Shown piece after piece: positions 28,329-56,767 of a DNA stretch of 64,000 nucleotides (positions are counted from its first letter, which is position 1; every line of letters starts with the position of its first letter). Where the stretch lies: the NCBI GenBank assembly GCA_032358165.1, contig JAALGY010000062.1, positions 496,001 to 560,000 on the forward strand, written 5' to 3'. Origin of the DNA: Diplosphaera chodatii (taxonomy: Eukaryota > Chlorophyta > Trebouxiophyceae > Prasiolales > Stichococcaceae). Below the pieces are notes generated by a model. That model saw nothing but the letters and a program-made list of their open reading frames with translations, did not search any database and was not told where the DNA came from. A program made the position numbers and the translations under genes.

Positions 28329-31300
28329 TCACGCCAGCGCGCGGCGACGGCCGCCGCCGCCACGCAGCAGAGCCGCCTGGACAGCATCCTGCACCATGAC
28401 AATGAGCCAGATTTGAAAGATGCGCTGCAACTCATTGGCTCTGCCAGACGGCACGTCCAGATGGCTGGACCCTCCCCAGGTAGCATGCCTGGCAAAGGAG
28501 GCCGTGGCTGCTGACATGCAGTCCTTGCACATCCCGTGGAACTGTACTGTGGGACGCAGGGCAGGCTGCCACTGCACACTCTGCACAAGCGCGCACCTGC
28601 AGCTGCGGGATGTTGATGGTGATGGAGCCAGCGCTGTTGCTGTCAGTGGAGTTGGGCGTCAGGCTCAGGTTGAGGTTGATGACGTTGATGGTGGAGTTGC
28701 TGATGGATGTGGCGCCACCGCAGCCGCAGCCGCAGCCGCAGCCCGATGTCTGGGGGCACGACACCGGCTTCTCGCAGGGGCAGCCAGTCGTGTTGGTGCC
28801 TGCGGGCAGGGGGCCACGGCGACGCATGTCAGCGGCAGATGAGTGTCGTGGGAGAAGCACAGCTCATGTGCGATGACAACAGGCAAGGTGCGCCCCTGCG
28901 CTGGGGCACTAGCACAGTCCCCAAACCACACCAATGGTCCTTTTCTGTGGGGAGCTGCATGTTGCTGCCCACCTGCGACAGCCGGGAGCGTGCTGCTGGG
29001 AGTCTGGGACACGCCGGCAACCTGGCCGGGAGTTGGGGTGCCCTCGCCAGCCACGGTCTGTCCGGAAGGTGTCTGCGCAACACATGCAGGCGTATCAGCA
29101 GCTGGCAATGCGCAGGGCTCGAGCAGCCCAGCTGCTTCGTGCGGAACACTGGCATTGCAATCCTAGCCTCCCTGCTTTCTCCCAGCAGGCCAGGCGGTAA
29201 CGTAACAGCCCCTGGACACACCTGAGAGACGCCCGCGACGCCTGTGGGAGTGGGGGCGCCGCCGCCGGGCACGCCGGACACAACGCCGCCAGAGGGGGTG
29301 GCTGAGGGGGTGCCTGCTCCAGGGAGGCCAGACACCTCGCCGCCGGAGGGGGTGCCGGAGGGGGTGCCTGCTCCAGGGAAGCCGGAGACCTCGCCGCCGG
29401 AGGGGGTGCCAGAGGGGGTGCCTGCTCCAGGGAAGCCGGAGACCTCGCCGCCGGACGGGGTGCCAGAGGGCACTCCGCCTGCTGACGGCACGCCCTCGCC
29501 AGCCGTGGTGACCTCGGACGGTGTGCTGGATGGGAAGCTGACGCCAGCAACCTGCACAAACGACCATCACATCGAGCATGCACTGCGGGCGACTGAAAGC
29601 ATGATGCACGCATGAGCCGATGGCAACCGCCATGGCCAGCAACATTGCCTCGGCCTGAGGTGGGTGGCGAGGACCTGAACAGGTGGCTGCGAAGGAGTTG
29701 ATGCCATGGGGCAGAGCCCACCTGGCCTGGGGTTGGGCTGCCAGCGCTGCCGGCAGGTGTGGGCTGGTTGACGAAGACGGTGATGCCCGATGGGGTGGGG
29801 ACGCCCACAGAGGAGACGCCAGTGGGGGTCGGGACGCCGAAGGTGGCCGTACCAGTGGGAGTTGGCCCACCAGGGCCTGCAGTGGCATGGTGTGCATCAA
29901 TGTCAAACCCAGAAGGGAGTGATTGAACTTGGTGTCGAGGAAACACCCACAGCACAGTGGGAGCCCTGCTGCTGAGCAGGCCACAATGCGGGCAGTGTGG
30001 GCACCAACCTGAAGGCTTGAAGCCACCAGATGGCTTAAAGCCGCCGGACGGCTTGAAGCCGCCGGATGGCGTGGGTGCAACGTTGTTCTCTGTGGGTGTG
30101 GGTGCAAAGCCCGAAGGCTTGAAGCCTGACGGCTTGAAGCCCGACGGCTTGAAGCCCGACGGCCTGCAGGTTGGAGAACCGATCCGCATCAGTGTTTGAC
30201 TGCATATATGCTACCGCATTGCAATGCGGCCCATAATGCGCCATGCACTGCCCTTTGGCAGTTCCCCGGTGTTTGCAGTCAGGTTGTCCTTCGACCCATC
30301 ACATTGCTGCAGACCCGTCACATGCACTGCCTCTTACTTGCTGGGCCTGGTGGGGAAGCCAGCGGGCGTAGGCGCAGAGGGTGTGGTGGGGGTCGTGGGT
30401 GCCGTTGGCCTGGTGGGCCTCGAGGGCTTCGACGGCTTGGTGCCGGGTGGCGGCATGCCGACTCTGGTCTCAGTCGGTGTGGGCGCGGTGGGGGCGGTGG
30501 GGGCGGTGGGTGCGGTAGGGGCGGTGGGTGCGGTGGGTGCGGTGGGTGCCGTGGGTGCTGTCGGTGCCGTCGGCTTAGTGGGCTTTGTCGGCTTCGTGGG
30601 GGCGCCGGGAGGCGGCACTCCAACCCTGGTCTCAGGCGGCGAGAACGGCGGTGGCGAGAAGTTGGGGAAGGTGTTGGACGGCCCGGGCGGCGGGCTTGGC
30701 GGCGACACTTCAGAGGGAGTACCTGGTGGTGGCACGCCGACGCGCATCTCAGGAGGCGAAAGTGGGCTGGGCGGTGGGCTAGGTGGTGACACTGCAGAGG
30801 GATTACCTGGTGGTGGCACGCCAACACGCATCTCAGGTGGCGAGAGTGGGCTGGGCGGGGGGCTGGGGGGTGATCCTACAGAGGGAGTACCTGGTGGTGG
30901 CACGCCGATGCGCATCTCGGGTGGCGAGAGTGGGCTGGGCGGGGGGCTGGGCGGCGGGCTGGGTGGCGGCGATGGCGGCGGGCTGGGCGGTGGCGAGGGT
31001 GGCGGGCTGGGCGGAGGGCTAGGTGGGGGGCTGGGTGGCGGGCTGGGTGGTGGGCTGGGCGGCGGCGATGGAGGCGGGCTGGGCGGCGGCGATGGAGGCG
31101 GGCTTGGGGGTGGCGATGGTGGCGGGCTGGGTGGTGGCGATGGCGGCGGGCTGGGCGGTGGCGATGGTGGTGGGCTGGACAGCGGGGTACCAGGCGGTGG
31201 TGGAATGGTATCCCGGAACTCCGGCGGGGTCAGGGGTGGCGGTGGGACAGCAGCGGACACTGGCGGCGGGCCAGCCGGCGGGATGCAGTCACACACCTGT

Positions 31301-34300
31301 ATGCATGGAACATCAAGCAAGCGGTTACAAGGGAACGGGGTTGAAGGTTGCTGAAGGGACCGCTATCCAATGGCAGCAAAGGGCAGGCAGCAAGCGCCAG
31401 CTGCAGGCTGCGGCAACGATGTTGTCAGCTTACCACAGGGAATTTGAAGGGGCCGCAGGTCTTGCACAGCTTGTAGCCGGGGATCTTCTTGCCGCAGGGG
31501 CCAGTCACCATTGCTGGGGCAGTGCCATTGTTGGGCACATACTTGTCGTCAATGAAGTACAGCGTAACGGTTGAGCCTGCAGACAAACCCAGCAACAGTA
31601 TCCCCGAATTGCTCTCAGCTGACGAAGGCGAGCATATCCCACACTTAGCAACAATGAAGCAACGACATGACATTGCATCAGCAGTGCAGCACGCACCGCA
31701 GGGGGCATCAAAGTAAAACAGAGCCTCGTCCTGGCCGCACTGCTCCCTGTAAGGCGAGGTCAAAGGGTCGGCCGATGTGCTATGGTGGGTTTGTATACTG
31801 AGCATGACGACAGTAAGAACCAGGGCCGAAACACATGCAGGGCACCCCATATGTATGTAAGACGGCCAGGCATGGGTGGTTGGCAGCTCACCGCTCCTTG
31901 TTGCAGACCTCCATGCCATGCTTGTCGGTGTAGGATGCCAGGACCTTGGTGATCTTGTGGCCGAAGCAGTTGCGGACGGTGACAGAGGCGAAGCCGGGCT
32001 TGTACGGGTTGCACTTGCTCTTGACGCACTTGCCGGGGTACTTGGGCGCCCAGGGGCACGGCTTCTTGTGCTTGTAGGGGCAGACCTTGGGCGGCGGTGG
32101 CACCATCGGAGGCGGGCTGCTGCCCCTGAACTCGGGGGGTGTCAGGGGGGGCGGGCTGGGCGGCGGGCTGGGTGGCGGGCTGGGTGGTGGGCTGGGCGGG
32201 GGGCTGGGGGGCGGGCTGGGTGGCGGGGATGACGGCGGCGGGCTGGGAGGCGGCGACGGCGGGGGGCTCGGGGGCGGGCTCGAGGGCGGCGGGGTGGCGC
32301 CACGGAACTCTGGCGGCGTCAGCGGCGGCGACAGCGGCGGCGGCGCGGCGCAGCAGGGCACCGGGAAGGTGAATGGGCCGCACAACTTGCACAGCTTCTT
32401 CTTGGGGATCTTGCAGGTGGAGTTGCCCAGGTCCAGCGGGAGGCCGCCGGGGGGGTAGTACATGTTGTCGCTGATGAACAGGCTCACGGTTGTGCCGCAC
32501 CTGCAGGCGGGATACGAGGGAGGCATGGGCAACAGCGGCATTGACAGTGATGCGGCAATGTTCAGCTGACGAAGCTTGGCAAAGCTGTGGGCAGACGAAA
32601 CAAGCTCACTTGGCATAGAACTCGAACAGGTCCTCGCCCTGGCCACAGCTCTCCCTGCGTTGATGATCAACCTCGATTGAGACCAAAACTGCAGCAGGTC
32701 CGCACCAGGAGGTGCACAAGAGGGCAGTGAAGACTGTCCTGGGAGAACGCGTGACTGCATCTGGTGTGTCACATTGCAGCATCTCAGCCAGTGGCCCGGG
32801 CCACTCTGGGTAAGCTTCTGACTATGCAACCTAAGAGACACACGTCTTGTCGCAGGCAAGGTTGCGCACTTGTACTTGTCGCAGGTTTTGCCGTAGTAGC
32901 CATCGTATTCGGCCTGAATGGAGCCGATGGACTTCTTGAAGCAGTTGCCGACAGTGACGTAGCTGTAGCCCGGCTTCTTCTTGGAGCACTTGATCTTCAC
33001 GCAGTTGTCGTTCTTTGGCTTCATGGGGCAGGGCCACTTGTCCTTCATGGGGCAGGTCTGCAGCAGCACAAGCCACTTCACTGTCAGCACTCCGGCCGCG
33101 CGGCTCTGGCAACGCACACAGTCAGCGACGGTGGCTGCTGCAGGGCCGCTGTCAGCACTGGCCAGCAAATAGGCAGCCACAGCATGCAGCTGGTCGACAC
33201 AGAGCAGGCACGGGTGATCCAGATTGCCATGCACGAGCTGCCGTCAGGGGTCAGACCTGTGGCGGCGGCGGCGTGAAGACGGCTGGTGGCGGGATCGCCG
33301 TACGCAGCTCCGGTGGGCTGCTCGGCGGCGGGCTCTCGGGCGGTGGGCTGCTGGGCGGCGGTGAGGATGGCGGCGGGCTGCTGGGAGGGGGGCTTTCGGG
33401 AGGGGGGCTTTCGGGCGGGGGGCTTTCAGGCGGGGGGCTGTTCGGTGGAGGGCTGCTGGGTGGCGGGCTCTCTGGCGGCGGGCTCTCAGGCGGCGGGCTG
33501 CTGGGCGGCGGGGTGGCCTCACGGGTCTCCGGCGGGGATGAGGGCGGCGGCGATGGGAGCGCCGCTGGGCTCGGCGGCGGAGACTTCTTCGGGCAGTTGC
33601 AGTCCTGAATCGGATGCAGCACAGGCATGTCACCATCAAGCACGAGTCAGAGAGGCCGTGCTACAAGTTGGCTGTGGTTGCGACACCCCCGGTACAGAGC
33701 AAACAGACGCCGCACAGCAGGTGGAGGGAGGATAGCGGCGGGCATGGAGCACTGCTGACGCCTAGATGATGGTGCTCACCACATGGAACTTGTAGGGGCC
33801 GCAGGTGTTGCAGCGCTCCTTGCCCTTGAAGACGTCGGAGCACACGCCGCAGTCGCCCAGCGGGTTGCCGCCCGAGGGGCAGTGGCTCGAGTCGGTGAAG
33901 TACAGCACCACATCAGTGCCGCACCTGCAGAGCGCGGACAGACCCTGTCAGCGCCCCGTGTCTGGGTGTAAGGGGAGTGCGGCGAAGCGCCTGTCCAGGT
34001 CAGTAGCGGCGCCACCAAGTGCAGCAGGAGGAGAGCGGGCCCAATGCATGCCGATGTAGAGCACATGTTAGTGGACAGCAACATACTTGGCCTTGAAGGT
34101 GAACGCCTGGCTGCGGTCACCGCAGTTTTCCCTGCAGAAAGTGGGTGCATGAAGTGCTGTTGGACAGTGACTTGAACTGCAGGCCGCTCCTCTTGCTTGC
34201 TCGACGACCTTGCAGAGGCACAGGAGAGGTGCACTGGATGTGCCTTGCGGCACGCAATGCTGGCATGTCAGACACGGCGTGGTGGAAAGACTCGCACGTG

Positions 34301-34939: not shown

Positions 34940-35220
34940 GTTTGCGCAGCGGTGTGCCGCCCGACGCCCTTGTACACAGCTCCGCGCTCACGCCTGCGGG
35001 GTTGCTGAGAAGGTCGCCTGCATTGCAGAACGCTGCATGTCAGGAAGCCGCCGAACAGGCAGTGTTCAAAGCCTCAAATCATTCAGTACCCTACCGACGC
35101 ACGAAGCGACAGGTTGTCTGTTGTCGTCTGCAGCAAAGCCGCTGCAGAGCTGAAGATAGATATAATGCCCACGGACAACGGCAACTGAAACGTTGGGCAC
35201 CATCCACGGCGCGGTTGCCC

Positions 35221-35258
35221 GCCGACCAAAAAGCCGCCGACCAAAAAGCCGCCGACCA
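35221..35258. repeat. 15-bp short tandem repeat
   Basis: GCCGACCAAAAAGCC repeated two and a half times, about 280 bp upstream of the gene D start codon (minus strand). Confidence 0.85.
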
Positions 35259-36639: not shown

Positions 36640-36644
36640 TTACA
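36640..36644 (-). terminator. TGTAA polyadenylation signal (gene C)
   Basis: TTACA on the plus strand, 280 nt past the gene C stop, within a locally AT-rich stretch. Confidence 0.5.
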
Positions 36645-36923: not shown

Positions 36924-39900
36924 TCACGGCAGCGTGTCTGCATGGGCGCCCGGACCGCCGCGGCTGGTATGACCGTGGTCAAGAGAACCGAATGCAAGTG
37001 CTTCGGCAGTCGCTGCGCCAGCGTTGACCATCTGTCCACTGGCACTGGCCGTGGCACGCGCCCGACTGTTGCCGCGCTGCAGCGCCCTCGCAGCACCACC
37101 CTGTAGCACCACCACCTCATTGCCGCTGCCGGCTGCAAGGTTCTGCAGCCAGAAAGACACGCAGCAGGTCAGACTGTGCCCAACGCTCATGCTGAGTTGA
37201 TGCATGGCCGGTGGCGCGGGCAAATCAATCCACCGTGCCATGCTGCATCATCGTTAGGCAATCTCAGACTTGTGGCCATGTCACATTCTGGTCCCAGTAC
37301 TGACCTGGAGTGCAGACAGGTCCAGGTTGATGCTGCCCCCGGCCGCCGGCTTCTCGACGTTGATGTTGATGACCGTGATGTTGCTGTCCTTGATCGTGAG
37401 GCCGCCGCAGCCGCAGCCGCAGCCGGCCGACTTGCAGTTGTGCGCTGCTGCGCAAGGCGCCGTGGCGTTGGCACCTGCAGTGCAGACTTGGTGTCAGCAA
37501 AACCACATCCACCTTCCGCACACGGGGCCTTGATCCCACGTTCATCTGCAGCATGCAGACAGCACATCAGGGGTTACCAGGAAGCTCATGGCACGACATG
37601 CCGCTCACCCTTGGTGACAGTTGGCGGGGCGCTGCCGGCTGGAGTCTCAGACGGCTGAGAGACTCCAGCGACACGGCCGCCGCTGGGCGCCTGCGAGGGT
37701 GTGGCCTCCGCTCCAGCCGGCGACTCGTTGCCCAGACCCGCCACGCCTGTGCTGCCGCTGGGGGCGCCCGCTGGAGTCAGGCCCGTCGCCGAGACGCCGG
37801 TGGGCGTGCTGCTGGCTGAGCCGCCGGCCGGGGTACCCGATGGCACAGTGCTGCCGGGCTCGCTGCCGGCGGGCGCGGCCTGCGAGGGCATGGGCACCGC
37901 CTCGCCGGAGGGTGTGAAGCTGACGCCTGCGACGCCTGTGGGGGTGCCGCCCTGGGTTGGCGCTCCGCTGGGCGTGCCAGGTGAGGATGTGCCGCTGGGG
38001 GTGCCGAAGGCAGATGTGCCGCTGGGCGTGGGGCTGCCGGAGGTCGGGGTGCCGCTGGGGGTTGGGCGCCCAAAGGAAGATGTGCCGCTGGGGGTGGGGC
38101 TGCCGAAAGAAGATGTGCCGCTGGGGGTGGGGCTGCCGAAAGAAGATGTGCCGCTGGGGGTCGGGCTGCCCCCGGGGGTCGGCTGGCCGAAGTTGAACTC
38201 CGTCGGGGTGCCGCGGGTGGTGGGCCTGCCGCCCGGGGTTGGGCCAGAGCCAGGGGTAGGACCACGGGGCGAGCGGGTGGGCTGTCTCCGTCGAGAGGGC
38301 CGCGATGGCTTGCTGGGCTTTGTGGGCACGGTAGGGCTGCCGCTGGGCGTCGGCGAGGTGCTGGGGGTGGGCGAGGTGCTGGGGGTGGGCGAGGTGCTGG
38401 GCGTGGGCGAGGTGCTGGGCGTCGGCGAAGTGCTGGGGGTGGGCGAGGTGCTGGGCGTCGGCGAGGTGCTGGGCGTCGGCGAGGTGCTGGGCGTCGGCGA
38501 AGTGCTTGGGGTTGGGGAGGTGCTGGGGGTAGGCGAGGTGCTGGGGGTAGGTGAGGTGCTGGGCGTAGGAGTGGCAGGCGGTGGGACGCCCATCCTGAAC
38601 TCCGGCGGCGACTGCTCGGCAGGCGGGCTGTAGGTTGCGGGCGGGGAGGTGCTGGAGGGTGGCGTGTAGACTGATGGCGGGGCATTGGCAGGCGGTGGGA
38701 CGCCCATCCTGAACTCCGGCGGGGACTGCTCGGCAGGTGGGCTGTAGGTAGCGGGCGGGGAGTTGCTGGCGGGTGGCGTGTAGACTGATGGCGGAGCATT
38801 GGCAGGCGGTGGGACGCCCATCCTGAACTCTGGCGGGGACTGAGTGGCAGGCGGGCTGTAGCTTGCTGGCGGGGTGTCAGCCGGCGGTGGATTGCTGGCA
38901 GGCGGTGGGACGCCCATCCTGAACTCCGGTGGGGCCTGCTCAGCAGGCGGGCTGTAGAGTGTCGGCGGGGTGTCAGCGGGCGGGGAGTTGCTGGCGGGCG
39001 GCGCGAAGGCAGATGGCGGGGTGCCAGCTGGCGGCGTGTTGCCAGCCGGCGGCGGGATAGCACTGTTGAACTCGGGCGGCGTCAGCGGCGGTGCGCAGGG
39101 GCATTCCTGCAATCATTGCACCGACTCAACCTTAGCAACATGCTGAGATCGCAACAGCTGTTAATGTCATCGTGGAGGACACTTCAGCAGCTGCAGCATC
39201 TTGCAGCAGATCCCATGTCCGATGTAGTGAGCATCAACACTCACCACAGTGAACTCGAAGGGGCCGCAGGTCTTGCACAGCTTGTACTTCGGCAGCTTGG
39301 ACGCACAGGCGCCCGCCACCGCCAGAGGTGCAGTGCCGTTGTTGGGGACGAAGTCGTCGTCAACAAAGTACAGCGACACTGTGCTGCCGCAGGGCGCCTG
39401 GAAGTAGAACAGGGGGCCGTCCTCGCCGCACTCGTCCCTGCAGGTGGCAGCAGGTGGATGGTACGTCACCTGCATCTTGTGCCTGATCGGCAGGGGTTGT
39501 GACCACTACGACTGAGGAACAGCAAGGCATGGCATGCTAATTGTGCTGCCGCTGTGCAGCAAAACAGCACTGGCCACTCACCTGTGCTTATCGCAGACCT
39601 CCTCGCCAAACTTGTTGGTGTATGATGCCAGGATCTTGCTGATCTTGCGGCCGAAGCAGTTGCGGACGGTGACGGAGCCGAAGCCGGGCTTCTTCACACT
39701 GCACTGCGTCTTGACGCACTTGCCAGGGTGCCTGGGCTCCAGCGGGCACTTCTTCTTGTGCTTCGTGGGGCACATGGCGGGCGGCGGGGGCACAGCCCGC
39801 CGGAACTCCGGCGGCGGCTGCAGTGATGGGGGCGTAGCCTGCCGGAACTCAGGCGGTGTCGCAAGCGGCGGGCTGGGAGGGGGGGCCGGCGGCGGGCTGG

Positions 39901-40282
39901 GGGGTGGGGATGGTGGCGGTGAAGGGGGTGGTGAAGGTGGCGGTGAAGGCGGTGGGCTGGGCGGCGGGCTGGGGGGCGGCGAAGGGGGTGGGCTGGGTGG
40001 AGGTGATGGCGGCGGCGAAGGTGGTGGGCCGGGAGGCGGGCTGCTGGGGCACTGCACCTCGAACTCGTAGGGGCCGCAGGAGGTGCACAGCTTGCCGCTG
40101 AACTTGGTGGCGCACTTGGACTGGCCCAGGTCCAGCGGCGTTGAGCCGTTGTTGGGCACCAGTTTCTTGTCGCTCAGCCACAGCGTGACGGTCGAGCCGC
40201 AGGCCGCCTGGAACTCGAACTCAGCTCCCTCGTCGCATGACTCCCTGCACAGCAGCAGCCAGTACCATGGTCAGGCGGCGGC

Positions 40283-40313
<31 letters not shown>

Positions 40314-43000
40314 CAGATGCTCCTGACTGGCTCAACAGCACAAGTTGAACGATGCAACATGGCCATCCACTACATACGCAGCCACAAGGCACCCCACAAG
40401 GTCGCAGCCAGCAGGAAGAAAGCGCACATCTCCTGGTCGCACACGAGCTTGCCGCGCTTGTTGGTGTACTCAGCCGCCAGGTGGTCGATGTTGCTACCAA
40501 AGCAGTTGCCGACTGTGACGGTGGCGATGCCCTTGTCGCTGACCTCGACAGTCTGGACGCACTCGTCAGGGTGCTTGGGCTCCGCTGGGCACGGCTTCTT
40601 GCCCTTGGTGGGGCAGGCCGGCTGCGGCGGGCTGGGGGGCGGCGAAGGGGGCGGCGAGGGGGGTGGCGCGGGCGGCGGGCTGCTGGGCGGGGGGGTGCCA
40701 ACGCGGAGCTCTGGTGGCGGCGCGGCATTGCAGGTGACCGGGAACTCAAACGGCCCGCACGACTTGCACAGCTTGTTCCTGAACTTGTTGGCGCAGGTGG
40801 AGTTGCCCAGGTCCAGCGGGGAGCTGCCGTTGTTGGGGTAGTACTTGTTGTCGGACAGCCAGAGCGTGACGGTTGACCCACACTCGGCGTCGAAGCCGAA
40901 CATGGGCCCCTCATCGCAGGTCTCCCTGCAGACATGTAGATGAAATGGTGCGTCAAGCGTGCTGGTCGTTTTCTGCGCTGGCACCAAAGATGCTCCGATC
41001 GAACAACAATGGCAAGTTCTTACAGCTCCATGAGCAGGCAGCCTTCAAGAGAGCAGGTAGGCAGAAGAGGCGCACTGCTGCTGGTCGCAGACGAGGTCGC
41101 CGCGCTTGTTGGTGTACTCCGCAGCGATGAAGTCGATGTTGCGTCCGAAGCAATTGCCGACCGTGATGCTGGCGGTGTTCTTCTTGCTGTCAGTGTCGCC
41201 GATCTGCACGCAGCTCTTGGGGTGCTTGGGCGCCAGCGGGCACGGCTTCTTGTCCTGTGTGGGGCAGCCCACCGCCGGCGGCGGCACGCCCTGGCGGAAC
41301 TCGGGGGGCGGGCTGGGCAGCTGTTGCGGTGGGGGGCTGGGGGGCGGCGCCGGGGGAGGCGACGGCGGCGGCGGGGGGGGAGGCGCAGGGGGCGGTGACG
41401 GAGGTGGGACTGGCGGCGGGCTTGGAGGCGTGGCAGGTGGCGGGCTGGGCGGCGGGCTGGGCGGCGGGCTGGGCGGCGACGAGGGTGGCGGGCTGGGGGG
41501 ACTGCTGGGGCACTGCACCTCGAAGTCGTAGGGGCCGCACGATGTGCACAGCTTGCCGCTGAACTTGTCGGCGCACTTGGACTGGCCCAGGTCCAGTGGC
41601 ATTGAGCCGTTGTTGGGGACGAGCTTGTTGTCGCTCAGCCAGAGGGTGATGGTGGAGCCGCAGGCCGCCTGGAACTCGAACTTCGACCCTTCGCCGCAAG
41701 ACTCCCTGCACAACAGCAGATGCATGGCATGGTCAGGCAGCAGTACCACGAGCGTAGTGATCCATTGGATGTACGTCCAGAGATGACCAGAGCACACATA
41801 AGTACAATCAGGTGGGAAAGGAAGCGCACATCTCCTGGTCGCACACGAGCTTGCCGCGCTTGTTGGTGTACTCGGCAGCCAGGTGGTCGATGTTGCGTCC
41901 AAAGCAGTTGCCGACCGTGACGGTGGCAATGCCCTTGTCGTCGACCTCAGACGTCTGGACACAGTCGTCAGGGTTCTTGGGCTCCAGGGGGCACGGCTTC
42001 TTGCCGTTGGTGGGGCACGCCAGCTGCGGCGGGCTGGGGGGTGGCGAAGGGGGCGGCGAGGGGGGTGGCGCGGGCGGCGGGCTTGAGACTGGGTTGCTGG
42101 GCGGGGGGCTGGAGACGCGCAGCTCCGGCGGGGCCGCAGCGTCGCAAGTGACCAGGAACTCAAACGGCCCGCACGTCTTGCACAGCTTGTTCTTGAACTT
42201 GTCGGCGCAGGTGGAGGAGCCCAGGTCCAGCGGGGAGCTGCCGTTGTTGGGGTAGTAGGTGGTGTCGCTCAGCCACAGCGTGACGCTGGAGCCGCAGGCA
42301 GCCTCGAAGGTGAAGGTGGACCCCTCCTGGCAGCTCTCCCTGCAGGACATCGAAGGTTTCGTGTGTCAGAATGAGCGTACGTTGATGCAGGACCAGACCG
42401 GCACCACCACCACATTGACTCAGAACAGGCAGCTGCGCGACCAGAGACAAGGGCAAACGATCCCAGCAGCCGTATTTAACAGGAGGACGGTCAGACGCAC
42501 TGCTGCTGGTCGCAGACGGTGTTGCCGCGCTTGTTGGTGTACTCCGCCGCCAGGTAGTCGATGCTGCGGCCGAAGCAGTTGCCGACAGTGACGGTGGCGG
42601 TGGTCCCCTTGACGCTGGCGATCTGCACACACTTGTCAGGGTTCTTGGCCCCCAGCGGGCACGGCTTCTTGTTGTTGGTTGGGCAGCCCATGGCCGGCGG
42701 CGGGCTGGGCAGCGCCGTGGGTGCCGGCGACGGGGGAGGCGACTTTGGGTTGTTGAAGTGCGCTGCAGCTCCTGCAGTACCCATGCAGGCAGGAGTTCAG
42801 TCTGACCGCTCTCGCCCGTGCAGGACATGATACATGGTACATGCTACATGCTATATGGTGCAGGACGGCACGAGCCGCTGCACGGCAACAGCCTTCAGAA
42901 CTGGGTGTCGCAGCTACGCACCCTGCAGCATGGTCGCCAGCAGGAGCGCCAGGCATGCGAAGGCGCCTGCGGCGGGGGGTGCGCCACGGCGAGGCGCCAT
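36924..43000 (-). CDS. Modular hydroxyproline-rich wall glycoprotein, gene C (10 exons, five A/B pairs)
   Basis: Predicted secreted wall protein of 1576 residues. All exons join in phase: 42922-43000, 42501-42771, 41830-42339, 41076-41705, 40428-40925, 39582-40244, 39245-39437, 37609-39106, 37305-37474, 36924-37142. Signal: 'GAFACLALLLATMLQG'. Exon 2 ends with module A ('CPTNNKKPCPLGAKNPDKCV', 'ATVTVGNCFGRSIDYLAAEY'). Exons 3-6 each contain module B, a rod, then the next module A. Exon 7 is the fifth B ('CGSTVSLYFVDDDFVPNNG'). Exon 8 begins '[20 protein letters not shown]' and carries PPEFRMGVPPPA tags, about a dozen TPSTSP hexapeptides, a basic '[17 protein letters not shown]' tract and TPSG blocks. 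Exon 9 is the Cys-Gly domain '[18 protein letters not shown]'. Exon 10 carries 'GNEVVVLQGGAARALQRG'. Most Cys sit in A and B, suggesting disulfide-bonded beads on a glycosylated rod. The family is not recognised. Confidence 0.88.
38330..38580 (-). repeat. 18-bp coding array (TPSTSP hexapeptide)
   Basis: About a dozen near-identical 18-bp units (plus strand GGCGAGGTGCTGGGGGTG with synonymous changes) encode consecutive TPSTSP in exon 8 of gene C. Differences between units are almost all silent. Confidence 0.9.
40274..40314. repeat. CAG/CTG microsatellite in an intron of gene C
   Basis: Four CGG/GGC steps followed by about ten uninterrupted CAG triplets (plus strand), inside the intron between exons 5 and 6 of gene C. 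The paralogous intron at 41706-41829 shares the flanking GCATGGTCAGGCAGC but lacks the expansion. Confidence 0.9.
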
Positions 43001-45285: not shown

Positions 45286-48200
45286 TCATGGTGTGGCTGC
45301 AGCCTCGACCGCCTCCACGGCGACTGCAGCAGCCTCGGCAGCTACCGCGTCGTGCACGCCAGCCGCAGCAACATCAAGGCCGTTGCTGCTGGCTGGCAGC
45401 TGCAGGCGGCTGCCCGGCTGCGCTGCATGGCCGGCACGCAGCCTGGCGTGCGTGTCAGCGCCAGCCGCAGCAGGGTCGATGCCGCTGCTGCTGGCGGGCA
45501 GCTGCACACGGCCGCCCGGCCGCTTTGTTTGGCTGCCCCGCAGCATGGCGCGCGTGCCCGCGCCCCGCAGGACGACGATGTCGTCGTTGCTGCCAGACGA
45601 CAGCACGGCCTGCATATGGGCAGTTCACCTGCCAGATCCCGCAACCAGGCATTCACGTGCAACACCACGAAGACAACCTTTCCCACGTCGCTGTGCCAGG
45701 TTCTGCGCAGCAGCTGGCTGGCAAGTGCACCACATGGCATCTCCGCCTGATGCAGCATACCCACCTGAAGCTGGGCCAGGGCATCGCCGACCGTGCCGGC
45801 TGTGCCCTGCAAGTTGATGGTGCTGTTGGTGATGGTGATGCCGCCACAGCCGCAGGGGCAGTTGCCTGATGTGCACTTGCTTGCTGCTGGGCATGGCAAA
45901 GCGGAGCTGACGCCTGCAGTCAGCAGCACGTCTCAGTGCAGTGGCGCTATGTAGCCCTTCAACGGCAAGCATGAAGGCACAGCACATCAGATCGTGAACT
46001 GGAGTTGTGCGTAGCCAACCCTGTGAAGGCAGCATGGCAAAACTTGTAGAGTTTGAAGAACTGGCTGGACCTGCACCTGTTAGCGAGCCGGAGGGCTGGG
46101 CCAAGGTACCATTGCCGGCTGGGGTCTGTGAGGGGGCACCCTCGCTGCCTGATACTGCTGTCGGCGTGCCAGCTGGCACGCTTGCACCTGTGACGGTTGA
46201 TGTCGGGCTGCCTGAAGGCACGCCAGCAGCTGTTGCGCTGCTGCCCAGCGATGAGATGCCGCTGAGGGTGGGACTGCCGCCCAAAAAGCCCTGGGTTGCT
46301 GTGGGACTGCCAGCGGAGCCTGTCGGGGTTGACCGGCCCTGATTGAGATCTGTAGGAGCGCCGCCAAAGGTGGAGCCGCCCTCAGACGATGGCATGCTGC
46401 CACTGCTCAGCCTGCCGGGCAGTGGGAATGACGACGCAGCCGATGGCTGGCCCCCATTGAACTCAGTTGGTGTGGCAGCTCCCCCAGATGTGGGCCTGCT
46501 GCCGGATGTCGGCCGTCCCTCAGCGGCTGGGCTTGGATGCAGCGTCGGCCTGCCACTGCGGGTTGGTGTGCGTGGCGTGGGGGCCGAGTTTGAGGGGGCT
46601 GGCTGGCCTTGATTTAACTCGGTGGGTGTGGGAGCTCTACCCAGCCTGGGTCTGCCGCCAGATATGGGGCGGCGCCCAGATGTTGGGCTTGAACCCGACG
46701 TCGGCCTGCTGCCGCGGGCGGGGGTGCCTGGTGTGGGAACCGGAGTGAAAGGCGTCGGCTGCCCCTGGTTGAACTCTGTGGGTGTAGGAGCTCCAGCGGG
46801 TGTGGGGGACGTGGGAAAGCGTGATGGCCGGTTCGGACGCGATGGCCTGCTGGGCTTGGTGGGCGAAGCTGGTGTGCCAGCAGGCGTCGGGGTGGTGGGA
46901 CTGGATGGTGTTCCTGCTGGGGTTGGACTGCTGCTTGGGGTGGGAGACGTGCTGGGGGTAGGGGACACGCTTGGCGTGGGCGAGCTGCTTGGCGGCGGCA
47001 CTGCTGCCCTGAAACCTGGTGGGGAGCGCAGCAGGTGTGCGCTGGGCGTCACCGGTGGGGAAGTTCCAGGGGGTGGCACTGCGCCTGGCGTGGGCGACGT
47101 GCTCGGAGGTGGCGATGTGCTTGGGGTAGGGGGCACGCCAGGTGGCGGCACTGCTGCCCTGAAGTCTGGCGGGGGAGGCGTGGCAGTAGGCAGCGTCGTT
47201 GGAATGTCTGGCGGAGGAATTGCACTTCTGAAGTCTGGCGGCGATGCCGGTGGTGTGCATGAACAATCCTGCAACGAAGATGGCTCAATGTCACTAGTAT
47301 CACACCATCTGCTTGTCAACGCTGCATTCATCAAACAGGACGCGAGTTTGTGACTTGCATCATCAGGCACTCACGACAGTGAACGTGAAGGGGCCGCAGG
47401 TTCTGCAGCGTCTGCGGGCTGGAATCTTGGCAGCACAGACGCCAGCCAGCTCCAGCGGGGCAGTGCCATCGCCAGGGTAGAAGCTGCCGTCAATAAAGTA
47501 CAGCATCACCTCAGAGCCTGCAGCATGAACTCGGTCGTTGCATCAGGTCAACTGGTGAAAGCACCAGTCGAAACATGCGCATGACACACGTTGCTGTGGA
47601 TATCAGGGTTTGTGAAAACGCACAAATGGAGATCTGGACTGAGCGCAGACACATACCACAGGGGGCGGTGAAGGTGAATAGTGAGCTGTCATGCCCGCAG
47701 TGCTCCCTGTATGTACGATGATGCATGTGGCAATGGCAGTAACAGCTTCTGCACCAGGGAGAACCTACTTGCCATCAGCCACACTGCAAGGACTCGTGCT
47801 GTGTGATGGGCCCACCTGTGCTTGTCGCACGACTGCTCCCCGTAGTGGTTGGTGTACTCGGCCACCACCTTGTCGATCTTGCGGCCAAAGCAGTTCTTGA
47901 CGTTGATGCTGCCAAAGCCTGGCTGGCGCTTCAGGCACTGCACCCTCACACACTTGCCCGGGTGCTTTGGCGCCAGCGGGCACTGCGTCTTGCCGTGGGT
48001 GGGGCAGACCCGGGCCTTGGGGGGCGGCGAGGGGGTCAAGACCCGAGGTGGCGGGCTGCTGTCTCGGGACTCGGGCGACTGGGGCGGCTGGTTGAGGATC
48101 AGAGCCGGCGGCGGCGACGGAGGTGGCAGGACGGCTGGGGGCGGCGGTAGCAGCTCGCTGGGCGGTGGGAAAGGCAGCGACAGGGGGGCCGGGCTGGCGG

Positions 48201-49052
48201 GTGGCGGGCTGCCGAGGCGGACGTCGGGTGGCGAAGGGGCCGCGCAGGGGCACTCCACCGTAAAGGTGTAGGGGCCGCAGGACCTGCAGCGCCGGCTGGC
48301 CGGGATCTTGGCGGAGCAAGCGCTGGCGAACAGGTCCAGAGGCGCAGTGCCGTTGTTGGGGTGCAGGCTGCTGTCCACGATGAACAGCGTCACGCTGGAC
48401 CCACAGGGTGCCTCGAAGTCGAATCCTGAGTCCTCCTCGCAATCCTCTCTGCAGCACGGCACCCAACAGCGTCAATCCTGCAATCACAGCTGCAGCAGCA
48501 CAGGCATGAGCAGCCAGCACCCATGTGCCTTCAACCTTGACGGTCATCCCCATGTCACAACGTGTGGCGCAGATACAGCAACACGCCACACTCCGTCGGA
48601 CACCTGTGCTTGCCGCAGGTCCGTTCGCCGTACGAGTTCGTGTACTCGGCCAGCAGCTTGTCGACCCTGCTGCCGAAGCAGTTGCCGACGGTGACATGGC
48701 CAAACCCATCCTTGCCGCATCGCGTCTTGACGCACTTGGCAGCATGCTTCGGCTCCAGCGGACAGGGCTGCTTGCCCTTTGTGGGGCAGCCATCATGTGG
48801 GGTAGCTTGAGGAAGTGGACTGGATCCGGGAGTGTGGCCGTTGGCACCTGTGCGTGAACCAGCAGCTGCAGGTTGCACTGCAGGGTGCCCTTTTGGAGCA
48901 ACAAGCAATGCGACAGTGGCACTGCACTTCAGCTTCGGGGCCGCCTGCCGGGCCGATCGACGAGGGCCACATCGTGCACCTGGCAGCGCGGCGGTCAGCA
49001 GCACCGCCACCAGCAGCGCCAGCGCTGTGCCCCGGGAGGCGGCACCCGCCAT
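45286..49052 (-). CDS. Modular hydroxyproline-rich wall glycoprotein, gene B (8 exons, two A/B pairs)
   Basis: Predicted secreted wall protein of 935 residues. All exons join in phase: 48980-49052, 48604-48847, 47816-48448, 47657-47706, 47375-47517, 46077-47268, 45765-45913, 45286-45609. Signal: 'MAGAASRGTALALLVAVLLT'. Exon 2 ends with module A ('CPTKGKQPCPLEPKHAAKCV', 'GHVTVGNCFGSRVDKLLAEY'). Exon 3 is module B ('CGSSVTLFIVDSSLHPNNG'), a mixed PPP/SPP rod and the second module A ('GSINVKNCFGRKIDKVVAEY'). Exons 4 and 5 are the second B, split by an intron inside CGS. Exon 6 starts 'DCSCTPPASPPDFRSAIPPP' and becomes TPSTSP, a basic KPSRPSRPNRPSR tract and four PTEFNQGQPTP-type tags. Exon 7 is the Cys-Gly domain 'NCPCGCGGITITNSTINL'. 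Exon 8 has 'NDDIVVLRGAGTRAM' and an Ala-rich tail. It shares its last two exon types with genes C and D. Confidence 0.87.
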
Positions 49053-50919
49053 GCTGCGGCGGCAGCGCGGCTACCGCGTGCAGGCCGCCGGCTGTCGTGA
49101 GGGCCAAGTCAGCTCCTTCTAGTTTCTGCATATAAATACCATACGTCTCATTACAGCCGCAGTGTGTGACGCCGACGGCACTCAGGTTTGGCAGCGGGGG
49201 CTGCGGTGCACGAGGGACAGTAAAGTCATGCTGATACGCCGGACACACATGCCGCGCATATGCAGTACGTGTTTTGGAGTGTGCAACATCAGGCTTGCAT
49301 GCTGCTGCAGGCATGCTGATCAGGTCTCGTGCCATCTGCCTGAGCTGGGTCCAGCAGTGAAGGGTCATCCGAACGAAGCATTCTGTGCTGGCCACAGCTG
49401 CAGCACAAACTTGCGTACGTTCCAAGCGCGGCACCAGCTGCAAGCGAGCGCTCGACTAACTATGTCACAGGGCTGCCGTCTCATTACGCTGCCAGGTACA
49501 TGCCACGCACCGCCTGTTGGGGGTTAACAGCGGCTTGTTGAGACCGCGATTGTGCGTGTTCGAGGCTTTGCCAGGCATGCAATACGTCTGGCTCTCCTGA
49601 TCTACCATCTGAAGGCAGCGAGGTCCAGGCGTGCGGCCCCAAAAAGTGGGTAAGCGAGGGTTTGATGCTGCGTCTCAGGCGATGCATGGTACGCTGGACG
49701 TTGGGCCGCCTCCACTGCTTTGATGGAACCATCTGTGACTCCCGTGGCAGTTGATCACGCAGGTATACAGACGCAGTGTCCTGGGCGTCCAAGTCGACAG
49801 GCGCTGCAGCGCTTGCGAGCACACTTCACGCTCGCGTCGTGCCACAAATGCCAAGTAGTAGTCAAGTGCATCGGCTCTGCGAGGTACGAATACATGCGTG
49901 CAGCTGGTCAGGAGCCCCGCGATTGGCGTCAGATCCAGTTGACGGCTGGTCAGCACGGTGTCCGTGCCCGTGCATGTAAGATTGGGGGCGCGCTTGATGC
50001 CCACCCATGCGCCTATCTGAAACTGCGATTTCGAGTACACATTTTTGGCACGGGGCGAGTTCTCGACCTGCTCTGGGGAAAGATGCTGGTGGTGAAAAGG
50101 ATCGAGGCTCGAGCCGTGCACCTACCGGCTGGCTGGCGCCGGATCTGCGTTTCTGTCCGGGCGGCTTGTCGCCGCCCGACTGGGCCCCAATCTGCCGTGC
50201 TGTGGGTCGAGCCGAGGCGCAGGTCGGTGCCGAGTCTGTACACAGGGCGGCGTACAGCCTTGCCGAGTCAGGAAGGACGCCGGCACGGCCGCAGTACTCG
50301 GCGCAGCTGATTCCTGGTGACTGAATTGAAAGGTTAATTCCTTTGGGTCAGCACAGTCCGGGACGGCAGGCAGCTTCCGTGGAACAGGGTTCCCCATGGA
50401 AGCCATGTGGTGTGCCAGCGACGGTATGGGAGGCATAGGTAGGCCTCAGCCCCCCGGCCACGCACTGAGTGACCCTTTCCAAGCTGCAACTGGGTGTGGC
50501 CATGACGGAGCACTTCGTTTACAGACACGTGAAGGCCAAAGCAGTGCAGTCAAAAGAATAAGCAGGTCGTAAAAAGAAACTGGACGTAATATCAGAATCA
50601 CGTGCAAAATCTAGATGATTTGCTTCCTCTGATAGTCTGATTCCGTCATGTAGAGTCCTAGCTGGATTCTGCCAAGTCGATTACGCAGCCCAGCAGCAGG
50701 CAAAACTGCCCGCTGCTGAGCTGATGATCTAGCTAGGTACAACCCCGATTAATCCGCTTGCCTCCACCGCCGCCGGTGCTTCCACTGCTGCCGACCATTG
50801 CAACAGCACTCAGCGGCGGCACAGCCAGCCAGCACGATGTGGCCGGCGCTGGTGGCGGTCTAGCCAGGCGGCAGGGGCGGCGGTGTCAACGATGGGCCAT
50901 GACGAGGGCGGCAGGCTGA
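49053..50919. other. Spacer between wall genes B and A
   Basis: 1.87 kb holding the gene B promoter and gene A 3' end. Overlapping open frames of 100-196 codons occur on both strands at 49.5-50.3 kb. A minus-strand frame with 'ALDYYLAFVARREREVCSQA' looks protein-like but matched nothing I know. A TATAAATA string lies at 49131-49138 on the plus strand. The stretch 50540-50760 is AT-richer. Confidence 0.45.
50519..50523 (-). terminator. Possible TGTAA polyadenylation signal (gene A)
   Basis: TTACA on the plus strand, about 400 nt past the gene A stop. It is further than usual, so only a candidate. Confidence 0.3.
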
Positions 50920-53900
50920 TCAGCCGAGGACCTTCCGCCCGCAGCGGCACTCAATCGTGAAGGTGTATGGACCGCAGGCATTGCAGCGGCGCTTGGCGGG
51001 AATCTTTGCGCCGCAAGTGCTGGCGCTCAGGTCCAGTGGCGCGGCACCCTTGTTGGGGTACAGTTTGCTGTCCACGACAAAGAGCGTGACCCTGGAGCCG
51101 CACGGCGCCTCGAAGTCGAACGCTGGACCCTCATTGCAGTTGTCTCTGCAGCACCACAGCAGGAGCCGTCAGACTTGGAGCCACTTCGGCAGCATCAGCA
51201 ACAGCCTGATACAGCACAACACCCTGCTCATTGCAACATTGGTGCTGGTACGCTATAGCATGGATCCCAGGCGGACTTGCACCTGTACTTGCCGCAGGTC
51301 TTCTTGCCGCGGGAGTCTGTGTACTCGGCCAGCAGCTGATCCACCCTGTTGCCAAAGCGGTTGCTGATGGTGACGCGGCCCATGCCGTTCTTGCTGCACT
51401 GGGTGCTGACACACCCGGCGATGCGCGTCGACTTCAGCGGGCAGGACTGCCTGCCCTTGGTAGGGCACACTGGCGCGGGCGGAGGGCTGCTCCTCCTCAG
51501 GTCAGGCGGCGGCGGGCTGCGCTGCGGCGGGGGCGGCGACCTGAGCGGGGGTGGGGGCGGCGAGCGCGGCGGCGGGGAAGGCGGCGGCGAGTGTGGTGGT
51601 GGGGAGGGTGGTGGCGGGGAAGGTGGCGGCGGATGTGGCGGCGGGGAGGGCGGCGGCGACCGTGGTGGTGGGGATGGCGGCGGCGAGTGTGGCGGCGGGG
51701 ACGGCTTGCTGGGGCATGTGACCGGGAACTTGAAGGGGCCGCACGCCGTGCACAGCTTGTTCTTGAACTTGGGCGCGCACACGGAGCTGCCGAGGTCCAG
51801 GGGGGAGCCGTTGCTTGGGTACACCTTTCCGTCTGCCAAGTACAGCGTCACGACCGAGCCACACAGTGTGTCGAAGCTGAAGATGGGGCCCTCGTCACAT
51901 GATGTCCTGCAGGGTTTGCATGACAACGTCAGCAGCAGGCACCAGCTGCAGCAGGTGGTGTTCGGCGCTGTCTCCGGTTCAGATAAGTATCTGCTACAGA
52001 CAAGCAAGTGCAGTAGGCAGGCGGACCAAGATGGGGGCTGCCTACCTGTCCTTGCCGCAAACCATCTTGCCGTCCTGGGTCATGTACTCAGCCGCGATGT
52101 AGTCCACCTTGCGGCCAAAGCAGTTTCCGACTGTGACAGTTGCGGAGCCGCCCTTGCCTGGCTTGACCTTCGTACAGCTGCCGAGGTCAGGTGGCTGCGA
52201 TGGGCAAGGCTTCTTGTTCTTCGTGGGGCAGCTGGCAGGTGGTGGGACAGCCCGGCGGAAGTCAGGAGGCAGGCTAGGTGGCTGCCGAGGCGAGGCTGGT
52301 GGGCTGGAAGCAGCCTGTGGTGGTGGCCGGGGGGACAGTGCCGGCGGGACAGATGGCTGGCTTGGCGGGGGTGAGGAAGACGGGCTCTGTGGCGGGCTGG
52401 GCAGCGGAACAGGTGGTGGCTGAGGTGGTGGGCTCGGGGGTGGTGAGAAACTTGGCTGCGCTGGCGGGTCCCGAGGCATTTGTTGTGGCGGCCTCGCGAC
52501 CCTGAGGTCTGGTGGCGTCTGTGGTGGCGGCTGCGGGGGCGGCTGAGGTGGTGGGCTGAGTGGCTGCTGAGGTGGCGGCGAGGGTGGAGGCGCAGGTGGA
52601 GGGCTGGGCGGTGGCTGGGGAGGCGGAGATGGCGGAGGAGCAGGCGGAGGTGAGGGTGGCGGCTGAGGTGGCGGCTGAGGTGGTGGGGACGGAGGCGGCT
52701 GAGGCGGCGGCTGTGGTGGCGGGCTGGGTGGCGGCTGTGGTGGCGGCATGGCAAATCTGAGGTCGGGTGGAGTCTGAGGTGGTGGTGACGGCGGTGGGTT
52801 GGGCGGCGGTGATGGCGGAGGCTGGGGTGGTGGGCTGGGGGGCGGCTGAGGCGGTGGCGATGGCGGCGGGCTGGGCGGAGGGGCAGGTGGCGGTGATGGC
52901 GGTGGCTGGGGTGGTGGTGAAGGCGGAGGTGCAGGTGGCGGTGATGGCGGAGGGGCAGGTGGCGGTGATGGCGGAGGGGCAGGTGGCGGTGAAGGCGGAG
53001 GGGCAGGTGGTGGTGATGGCGGCGGCTGGGGTGGTGGTGATGGCGGAGGGGCAGGTGGCGGTGATGGCGGAGGGGCAGGTGGCGGTGATGGCGGAGGGGC
53101 AGGTGGCGGTGATGGCGGAGGGGCAGGTGGCGGTGATGGCGGCGGCTGGGGTGGCGGTGAAGGCGGAGGGGCAGGTGGCGGTGATGGCGGAGGGGCAGGT
53201 GGCGGTGATGGCGGAGGGGCAGGTGGCGGTGATGGCGGAGGGGCAGGTGGCGGTGATGGCGGCGGCTGGGGTGGCGGTGAAGGCGGAGGGGCAGGTGGCG
53301 GTGATGGCGGAGGGGCAGGTGGCGGTGATGGCGGAGGGGCAGGTGGCGGTGATGGCGGAGGGGCAGGTGGCGGTGATGGCGGAGGGGCAGGTGGCGGTGA
53401 AGGCGGAGGGGCAGGTGGTGGTGATGGCGGCGGCTGGGGTGGTGGTGAAGGCGGAGGGGCAGGTGGCGGTGATGGCGGAGGGGCAGGTGGCGGTGATGGC
53501 GGAGGGGCAGGTGGCGGTGATGGCGGCGGCTGGGGTGGCGGTGAAGGCGGAGGGGCAGGTGGCGGTGATGGCGGAGGGGCAGGTGGCGGTGAAGGCGGAG
53601 GGGCAGGTGGTGGTGACGGCGGCGGCTGAGGTGGTGGTGAAGGCGGAGGTGCAGGTGGCGGTGATGGCGGAGGCTGGGGCGGTGGGCTGGGCGGAGGTGC
53701 AGGTGGCGGTGATGGCGGTGGCTGGGGTGGTGGTGAAGGCGGAGGGGCAGGTGGCGGTGATGGCGGTGGCTGGGGTGGTGGTGAAGGCGGAGGTGCAGGT
53801 GGCGGTGATGGCGGCGGCTGGGGTGGTGGTGAAGGCGGAGGTGCAGGTGGCGGTGATGGCGGCGGCTGAGGTGGTGGGCTTGGGGGCGGCTGAGGCGGTG

Positions 53901-56767
53901 GCGAAGGCGGTGGGCTGGGAGGGGGCTGAGGTGGTGGCGATGGCGGTGGGCTAGGCGGAGGCTGGGGCGGCGGCGAAGGCGGTGGGCTGGGAGGCGGCTG
54001 AGGTGGTGGCGATGGCGGTGGGCTAGGCGGAGGCTGGGGCGGCGGCGAGGGCGGTGGTGCAGGCGGCGGTGATGGAGGCGGGTTCGGTGGCGGGCTCGGC
54101 GGTGGGCTGGGCGGAGGCTGCGGTGGTGGTGATGGAGGTGGGTTCGGTGGCGGGCTCGGCGGCGGGCTGGGAGGAGGCTGCGGTGGTGGTGATGGAGGTG
54201 GGTTCGGTGGCGGGCTTGGCGGAGGGCTGGGAGGAGGCTGCGGCGGCGGTGATGGAGGCGGGTTCGGTGGCGGGCTGGGTGGGGGGCTGGGAGGAGGCTG
54301 CGGTGGCGGTGATGGAGGTGGGTTCGGTGGCGGACTTGGCGGCGGGCTGGGTGGTGGGCTGGGCGGAGGCTGGGGCGGCGGCGAGGGAGGTGGGTTTGGC
54401 GGTGGCGACGGCGGTGGGCTGGGTGGTGGGCTGGGCGGAGGCTGCGGTGGTGGTGACGGAGGTGGGTTCGGTGGCGGGCTGGGCGGCGGGCTGGGTGGTG
54501 GACTGGGCGGAGGCTGCGGCGGCGGCGATGGAGGCGGGTTCGGTGGCGGGCTGGGTGGGGGGCTGGGAGGAGGCTGCGGTGGCGGCGAGGGAGGTGGGTT
54601 TGGCGGTGGCGACGGCGGTGGGCTGGGTGGTGGGCTGGGCGGAGGCTGCGGTGGTGGTGACGGAGGTGGGTTCGGTGGCGGGCTGGGCGGCGGGCTGGGT
54701 GGTGGACTGGGCGGAGGCTGCGGCGGCGGCGATGGAGGCGGGTTCGGTGGCGGGCTGGGTGGGGGGCTGGGAGGAGGCTGCGGTGGCGGTGATGGAGGTG
54801 GGTTCGGTGGCGGACTTGGCGGCGGGCTGGGTGGTGGGCTGGGCGGAGGCTGGGGCGGCGGCGAGGGAGGTGGGTTTGGCGGTGGCGACGGCGGTGGGCT
54901 GGGTGGTGGGCTGGGCGGAGGCTGCGGTGGTGGTGACGGAGGTGGGTTCGGTGGCGGGCTGGGCGGCGGGCTGGGTGGTGGGCTGGGCGGAGGCTGCGGT
55001 GGTGGTGATGGAGGTGGGTTCGGTGGCGGGCTGGGCGGCGGGCTGGGTGGTGGGCTGGGCGGGGGCTGGGGCGGCGGTGATGGAGGTGGGTTCGGTGGTG
55101 GGCTTGGCGGGGGGCTGGGGGGCGGCTGGGGCGGCGGTGAGGGAGGTGGGTTCGGTGGCGGGCTTGGCGGCGGGCTGGTTGGCGGGCTGGGCGGAGGGCT
55201 GGGAGGAGGCTGCGGTGGCGGCGATGGAGGTGGGTTCGGTGGCGGGCTGGGCGGAGGGCTGGGAGGAGGCTGCGGTGGCGGCGATGGAGGCGGGTTCGGT
55301 GGCGGGCTGGGCGGCGGGCTGGGCGGAGGGCTGGGAGGAGGCTGGGGCGGCGGCGAGGGTGGTGGGTTTGGTGGTGGCGATGGCGGTGGGCTGGGAGGAG
55401 GCTGGGGCGGCGGTGAGGGAGGCGGGTTTGGCGGCGGCGACGGCGGGGGACTGGGTGGTGGGCTGGGCGGAGGGCTGGGCGGCGGGCTGGGTGGCGGGCT
55501 TGGCGGGGGGCTGGGCGGGGGGCTGGGCGGGGGCGGGCTGGGTGGCGGGCTTGGCGGAGGTGATGGTGGCGGGCTGGGCGGAGGGGGCGGGCTGGGTGGC
55601 GGGCTTGGCGGAGGTGATGGTGGCGTGCTGGGCGGCGGCGGCGGGCTGGGTGGCGGGCTTGGCGGAGGTGATGGTGGCGGGCTGGGCGGAGGCGGTGACG
55701 GTGGCGGGCTTGGCGGAGGTTTCGGTGGTGGAGACGGCGGCGGAGGGCTTGGTGGTGGTGATGGTGGCGGGCTTGGTGGAGGGCTGGGCGGCGGTGGCGA
55801 AGGAGAGCAGCTGTCTCCACCACCGTTGCAGTTGACGGTGAACGAGTAGCCTCCACAACAACTGTCGCACAGCTGGTTGTTGGCGAAGAAGTTGTCGCAC
55901 TGCGGACTGCTCAGGCCTGGTGGCGATCCGGTTGTGGCATAGCTGGCATTGTACAAGTAAAGGACCACATTGGTGTTGCACTTCGCCACGAAGCTGAGCG
56001 CCGTTGCACCAGCACCCACGCTGTTCCCCCTGCAAGGCACATGTGTTCGGAGGTGATGTACAGGCGCTAACTCTGCTGCGCCTGAAAACACAGCATGTTC
56101 CTCGCGGACTGGAGCATCTGCACTCGCGGCTGCTTTGTGAAGCGCGAAGGCCGCTCATGCGAGCGCTCAAGAGCGAGAGCTCAACAGCACCAGATTGCTG
56201 AATAGGGGCATGCGGACGGCAACTCACGATGATTTTGCGCAGGTCGTTGACGTCGTGCTGCCAACCAGCGTCATGTACTGGGCGGCGATGAAGCCCAGGG
56301 ACCCGCCAAAGCAGTTCTTGACGGTGACTGTTGACGTTGTCCCGCCAGCGGTGGTTGCGCCGCTGCTGCATATGCATGGCGCACTCTGAGCGGGTGCGGC
56401 GGGGCATGCCGCCGTTTCGCCAGCGGCGGCTGAGCATGTGCAGGTGCTCCGGCCGCTCCCCGAATTTCCGCCCTTCGGATTCACGTCATCGCAGCTCACG
56501 GCGTCGGCACCTGTAAACGACAGCGACTGCGCTGGGTCGGTTCTGTGCACCACCCTCACTGCAGGGTGCCCTCACGTCAGGCTGCTGCGCTGGGGCCTGC
56601 CCAGGGGGGTGTGGCACCACGTCACAGCAACAGATGTGCCACCCCAGCTGCTGTCTGCGCAGCACACAGGCTGCAGATGAACCTTCACCTGGCAGCGCGG
56701 GGCCCAGGAGCAGCAAAAGTGCTGCCACCAGCAACAGTGTCGCCGACCGCAGCGTGACACCAGCCAT
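50920..56767 (-). CDS. Giant SPPP-repeat wall glycoprotein, gene A (5 exons, three A/B pairs)
   Basis: Predicted secreted wall protein of 1731 residues. Exons 56689-56767, 56228-56510, 52046-56029, 51283-51906 and 50920-51145 join in phase. Signal: 'MAGVTLRSATLLLVAALLLL'. Exon 2 ends in a divergent module A ('TSTVTVKNCFGGSLGFIAAQ') that lacks the CPTK opening. Exon 3 (3984 nt) begins with a divergent module B ('VAKCNTNVVLYLYNASY', 'LCDSCCGGYSFTVNC'). It then runs through about 1100 residues of SPPPxPPP, with x as N, Q or A, three 'PPDLR/PPDFR' tags and a canonical module A ('CPTKNKKPCP', 'ATVTVGNCFGRKVDYIAAEY'). Exon 4 has module B, a 60-residue SPPP/HPPP/RSPPP rod and a third A. Exon 5 is the last B, ending '-TFTIECRCGRKVLG'. 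Unlike the other three genes it has no TPSG block or Cys-Gly domain. The SPPP rod would form a polyproline II shaft after hydroxylation. Confidence 0.88.
52290..55800 (-). repeat. SPPPxPPP coding mega-array with higher-order units
   Basis: Twelve- and 24-bp units encode SPPP with N, Q or A variants. The N-terminal half (55.5-54.0 kb) is mostly '[20 protein letters not shown]'; the C-terminal half (53.9-52.6 kb) is 'APPPSPPP'. Larger duplications sit on top: 53101-53220 is identical to 53221-53340, and 54301-54480 is identical to 54781-54960. Confidence 0.92.

Follow-up and report, generated by a model that had tools for sequence, protein, structure and literature searches.

Four tandem genes for putative secreted rod-and-bead glycoproteins in the green alga Diplosphaera chodatii

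What kind of protein is built by a tandem array in which proline-rich repeats alternate with cysteine-bearing modules? The question is raised by a 64,000-nucleotide stretch of the Diplosphaera chodatii genome (C52:496001-560000, hereafter the window; contig C52 is JAALGY010000062.1 of an 85.6-Mb, 55-contig genome), in which a preliminary description had claimed four tandem minus-strand genes for modular cell-wall glycoproteins. Most knowledge of green-algal wall proteins comes from Chlamydomonas and Volvox. Orthology of the parts outside the SPPP repeats of such proteins is described as difficult to establish in a section of PMC3797821. The cluster described here, comprising G1, G2, G3 and G4 (previously A, B, C and D), provides a well-defined domain to trace and a simple exon rule for change in modular matrix proteins, while two collinear clusters within one genome offer a natural comparison. 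We consider it probable that G1-G4 are secreted chimeric hydroxyproline-rich glycoproteins (HRGPs) of the algal wall or extracellular matrix, pherophorin-like in build but not to be filed as pherophorins. What is new here is the domain together with the exon design; proteins of this general kind are already known.

Four tandem genes and their counterparts on a second contig

The minus strand was read by hand, exons were set by splice sites, and the resulting models were checked by script. Four genes, complete from start to stop, span 3767-6611 bp:

50920..56767, minus strand: G1, 5 exons, 1731 residues, 3 B/A pairs
45286..49052, minus strand: G2, 8 exons, 935 residues; 2 type II domains, TPS-rich tail, C-terminal module
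36924..43000, minus strand: G3, 10 exons, 1576 residues; 5 type II domains, TPSTSP/TPSG tail, C-terminal module
28329..34939, minus strand: G4, 18 exons, 1281 residues; 3 type II domains, SPPP and KPSGF rods, C-terminal module

All 37 introns, 106-218 bp in length, are GT-AG, and frame 0 is free of internal stops in each gene, whereas the other two frames hold 6-21 stops apiece. The rebuilt models reproduce the gene coordinates and the spacers (1867, 2285 and 1984 bp between neighbours) that had been proposed, together with the A/B pair counts of 3, 5, 2 and 3 from G4 to G1. The module set said to be common to all four is shared by G2-G4; G1 lacks the TPS-rich tail and the C-terminal module. 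From N to C terminus, G1 consists of a hydrophobic N terminus, a type I domain, a 1192-residue SPPP-rich stretch, a type II domain, an 82-residue rod, and a second type II domain followed by the stop codon.

When 6.4 kb of flanking DNA was used as a query, contig C35 proved collinear with the window flank (73% identity over 4.8 kb). The cluster DNA also aligns along C35, where G1-G4 are all present in the same order and on the same strand. The C35 genes were modeled using a spliced protein-to-DNA aligner checked beforehand on G2, with extended flanking sequence for G4 and a rebuilding of G2 by hand. Exon number and phases are identical between the contigs for G1 (5 exons) and G4 (18 exons); G1 stops after its third domain, without a C-terminal module, in both, and its CRCGRKVLG-stop ending is kept in C35. 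The other two genes differ in bead number between the clusters: C35 G2 (13 exons as modeled, its 3′ end not closed) has an additional type I domain and rod at its N terminus relative to the window, and C35 G3 comprises one type I and three type II domains, with one rod intron that is possibly an alignment artefact.

The ratio of nonsynonymous to synonymous substitution (dN/dS) between window and C35 ranged from 0.06 to 0.54 in all 13 comparisons (11 domains and 2 C-terminal modules), with pooled values of dN 0.10, dS 0.38, and dN/dS 0.265. Judged by this comparison, the cluster genes have been under purifying selection. Because C35 holds the same four genes at dN/dS 0.06-0.54, a chance origin of the gene models is disfavored. 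The long low-complexity repeats could alternatively mark the four models as repeat debris or pseudogenes, and unequal exchange is expected to be frequent in rods. That reading is extremely improbable against the lack of internal stops, the 37 consistent introns, the conserved phases of G1 and G4, and the pooled dN/dS of 0.27, and the earlier judgment that these are intact genes stands.

Similar spacer size, previously offered as a sign of tandem duplication, proved a weak one, as the 400 bp 5′ of the start codons show no similarity above that of shuffled sequences in any of the six gene pairs. The shared domains, along with the C-terminal module common to G2-G4, are better evidence for tandem duplication. 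TGTAA words 3′ of the stops (2-3 per 1.9-2.3 kb vs 0.9-1.35 in shuffles) were too weak to be used.

The genome may hold two diverged subgenomes, in which case the alga could be a hybrid or allodiploid. Near the window, C52 and C35 share ∼73% nucleotide identity, and Lhca pairs on C17/C45 and C26/C27 share 97.8% and 95.6% protein identity, respectively. For three further pairs, identity was only 29% over 79 codons, 41% over 27, and 41% over 223, probably owing to wrong frames or non-partner loci. The genome also gave 56 exon-wise matches to the chlorophyll a/b-binding family, which mark a green phototroph, and two Lhca queries hit photosystem I antenna chains in the PDB.

The B/A cysteine domain

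The modules A and B had been described as two types. Each of the 13 window copies has A immediately after B, no rod separating the two, and a phase-2 intron at the junction; the same adjacency and junction phase recur in all 13 C35 copies. A paralogue at C50:921843-922226 encodes B and A unsplit in one open frame. On this gene structure, A and B are the two halves of one domain of ∼127 residues, so that G1-G4 carry 3, 2, 5, and 3 beads. When the 12 type II copies of the window were aligned, leaving out the divergent first domain of G1, ten cysteines (four in B, six in A) proved invariant. The idea that A and B are separate but related modules was rejected, since the halves do not align in a profile comparison (probability 0.3% and 0.1%).

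An AlphaFold2 model of G3 exon 5 (A-rod-B, 7-row alignment) displays seven strands, three in A and four in B, at a predicted local distance difference test score (pLDDT) of 70.4 and a predicted template modeling score (pTM) of 0.61. Modeled alone (8 rows), the A half reaches a pLDDT of 60.9 and a pTM of 0.45; strand 9-14 is absent, strand 55-62 is shortened to 59-62, and a short new strand appears at 27-30. The comparison lends the single-domain reading modest support, because the exon carries the halves in permuted order with a B that belongs to the following domain, and because the lower score may simply reflect the shorter chain. The B/A domain is predicted to be all-beta. In structure searches, the PDB matches were all insignificant and for the most part immunoglobulin-like, and viral models yielded nothing noteworthy.

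Single-sequence searches at E ≤ 0.001 located at least 44 A-half and at least 34 B-half places in the genome, spread over C52, C35, C50, C33, C19, C25, and C15. A second cluster of the same family lies at C52:245-276k (plus strand), where tandem units stand 1.88 kb apart with 93% identity, and at C35:230-253k (both strands). Long, rod-rich paralogues were also observed at C19:1853-1863k, C25:2804-2814k, and C15:2833-2840k, and the C19 and C25 domains group with type I.

Exon cassettes and domain history

With B and A joined across an intron, the A half of one domain, the following rod, and the B half of the next domain can share an exon. This holds for eight of the nine A-rod-B linkages in the window, each of which lies on one phase 2-2 exon, as in the following example from G3:

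40430..40924, minus strand: G3 exon 5, A half - rod - B half, phase 2-2

In one of the eight, in G4, the first ∼15 residues of A are placed on a separate 45-base exon; the ninth linkage, also in G4, is interrupted by more introns. For C35, the count as modeled is five of nine (two in G1 and one each in G2, G3, and G4). Symmetric phases are not general in the window (13 of 33 inner exons). Since these A-rod-B exons are of phase 2-2, gain or loss of beads and rods can leave the reading frame intact, and the copying or dropping of such exons would alter bead number and rod length; it may be the cause of the differences between the window and C35 clusters. In C35 G2, a rod exon and its intron recur, the intron copies measuring 143 and 142 bp in the final model; 137 positions are identical over stretches of 147 and 146 bp that include 4 bp of exon.

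A tree was constructed from 26 cluster domains and three distant ones, with long branches flagged. Type I split from the rest with support of 100/99 and comprised the first G1 domain of both contigs, the first domains of C35 G2 and C35 G3, and the C19 and C25 copies. Positional window/C35 pairs were sisters with starred support in 9 of 11 cases, the exceptions being G2 domain 1 (d1) and G3 d5. Within G3, d1 is most similar to d3 and d2 to d4, which resembles an internal duplication:

40049..42685, minus strand: G3 domains d1-d4, as paired units d1-d2 and d3-d4

Domains d3 and d4 each group with their C35 counterparts (96/95 and 96/91) to the exclusion of window G3 d1 and d2, and for this reason the duplication looks older than the split between the contigs; support for joining d1 to the d3 pair is weak (82/63). 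Synonymous distances of 0.24 and 0.32 between the G3 duplicates and of 0.22-0.33 between three G3 window/C35 domain pairs are too close to date the duplication relative to that split. The simplest account would be a loss of d1-d2 from C35 G3 and of the type I domain from window G2 and G3.

Rods, relatives, and the likely role

The spliced G1-G4 proteins display the hydrophobic, signal-like N termini, proline rods, and cysteine beads that had been reported, and motif counts confirmed the four rod chemistries proposed (SPPP, TPSTSP, TPSG, and KPSGF). SPPP occurs 178 times in G1, 5 in G2, which is poor in it, 30 in G3, and 50 in G4 (263 in total); TPST is found 12 times in G3 and twice in G2, TPSG nine times each in G3 and G4, and GFKPS six times in G4 only. 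A further rod motif, PP[EDGS][FLVMTS]R, was noted in 26 copies (4, 4, 9, and 9 in G1-G4), and its forms PPDFR and PPDLR are also present in the second cluster. The most extreme rod, in G1, and the C-terminal modules map as follows:

52231..55806, minus strand: very long SPPP-rich rod of G1, within exon 3, protein residues 196-1387 (1192 residues)
36924..37474, minus strand: C-terminal module of G3, with a Cys-Gly repeat, N-glycosylation sequons, and a conserved RG-containing tail
45286..45913, minus strand: similar C-terminal module of G2
28329..28799, minus strand: similar C-terminal module of G4

Copies of the C-terminal module were also seen in C35. Hydropathy peaks at the N terminus of all four proteins (15-residue means of 1.87-2.79) and nowhere exceeds 1.4 beyond residue 40; the plots contain no second strongly hydrophobic stretch or membrane anchor. 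The hydrophobic N termini point to secretion, and because no such second stretch lies beyond them the products are probably released and would be built into the matrix.

Extensins and other plant HRGPs share SPPP repeats with G1-G4, which differ in carrying cysteine domains. YXY is the extensin cross-link motif; G1-G4 contain it only twice, both times inside cysteine domains and not by the rods. The abstract of PMC4769139 likewise names Tyr-X-Tyr. The Chlamydomonas mastigoneme proteins MST1 and MST3 also possess SPPP-type rods, which are described in PMC11015965 as glycosylated poly(hydroxyproline) helices able to act as rulers. Compared with MST1 and MST3, G1-G4 lack a second strongly hydrophobic stretch as a possible membrane part, and a search of PDB sequences with the B/A profile returned no match even at E ≤ 10. 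Scaled from the mastigoneme rod lengths in the same source (22 nm per 79 residues and 133 nm per 429), the 1192-residue rod of G1 would measure roughly 330-370 nm if fully extended.

The closest likeness in overall plan is to the pherophorins of Volvox and Chlamydomonas (PF12499, DUF3707), which PMC9818292 portrays as dumbbell-shaped, the length of the proline rod varying strongly, and which share with G1-G4 the cysteine-bearing globular domains, the variable proline rods, and the multigene family. This common plan, tandem family included, would fit G1-G4 as highly diverged true pherophorins of another green lineage, but PF12499 was not matched in eight window pieces (E ≤ 1), in any of the 12 type II domains (E ≤ 10), in the spliced N-terminal parts of G1 and G2 (E ≤ 1), or in the C-terminal modules of G3 and G4. 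G1-G4 differ further in carrying 2-5 beads per chain, compared with typically two in pherophorins, and in a bead cut by a phase-2 intron, with A-rod-B as the exon cassette. We regard the reading of G1-G4 as true pherophorins as distinctly unlikely.

Only one family scored above its curated cut-off in the parts tested. PF17390 (Bac_rhamnosid_C; cut-off 22.1 bits) reached 26.2 and 30.4 bits, in one of eight window pieces and one of four spliced proteins, and in the latter the match runs from B into A. Against the type II domains it was patchy, with 7 of 12 matched at E ≤ 10, a best E of 0.0002, and a tabled member at 13.3 bits, below the cut-off; a search of the alga's own genome gave four weak places at E ≤ 1, none above the cut-off. 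No glycosidase part was seen. PA14 exceeded its cut-off in one of five paralogue frames scanned, in the distant C19 paralogue (42.3 bits). Both similarities suggest carbohydrate contact and, along with the variation of bead number in G2 and G3 between the clusters, would suit surface adhesins or lectins, with glycan-binding beads on rods serving mating, aggregation, or symbiosis rather than a structural wall. Such a role is unlikely, given that the parts put through Pfam (rods and TPS-rich tails not in full) showed no known lectin domain and that hydropathy revealed no membrane anchor.

The SPPP rods, as in the Chlamydomonas mastigoneme proteins, and PA14 in the distant C19 paralogue favor a matrix role. 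The wall or matrix function proposed earlier is kept as the likeliest reading, which we infer rather than observe. In the mechanism envisaged, each chain alternates compact B/A domains with proline rods, for which hydroxylation, glycosylation, and an extended shape are expected. The rods would set distances as spacers or rulers, the beads would make contacts, and the wall is the probable location.

Relatives were also sought beyond this genome. In a protein search with G2 residues 40-384, none of 8000 scored candidates reached E ≤ 0.001, in a collection that may hold few or no algal records. Thirty pattern stretches in viral contigs and five in bacterial and archaeal genomes yielded no confirmed relatives, again in collections with possibly few or no algal records. 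NCBIfam gave only chance-level aconitase matches (best E 0.052), and the open-licence literature searched contained no description of the B/A domain. More tentatively, B/A may represent an undescribed extracellular domain family, with which this alga independently built a pherophorin-like matrix using phase 2-2 A-rod-B cassettes. In the boldest form of this idea, a speculation that is far less likely, A of one chain would pair with B of another in a domain swap through the rod, giving head-to-tail fibers.

Ten frames flanking the cluster were also scanned, three of which had family matches. Within the window, plus-strand positions 16565-17143 match an alpha-galactosidase (Melibiase_2, 34 bits) and 21589-24221 an acetyl-CoA synthetase (ACAS_N, AMP-binding).
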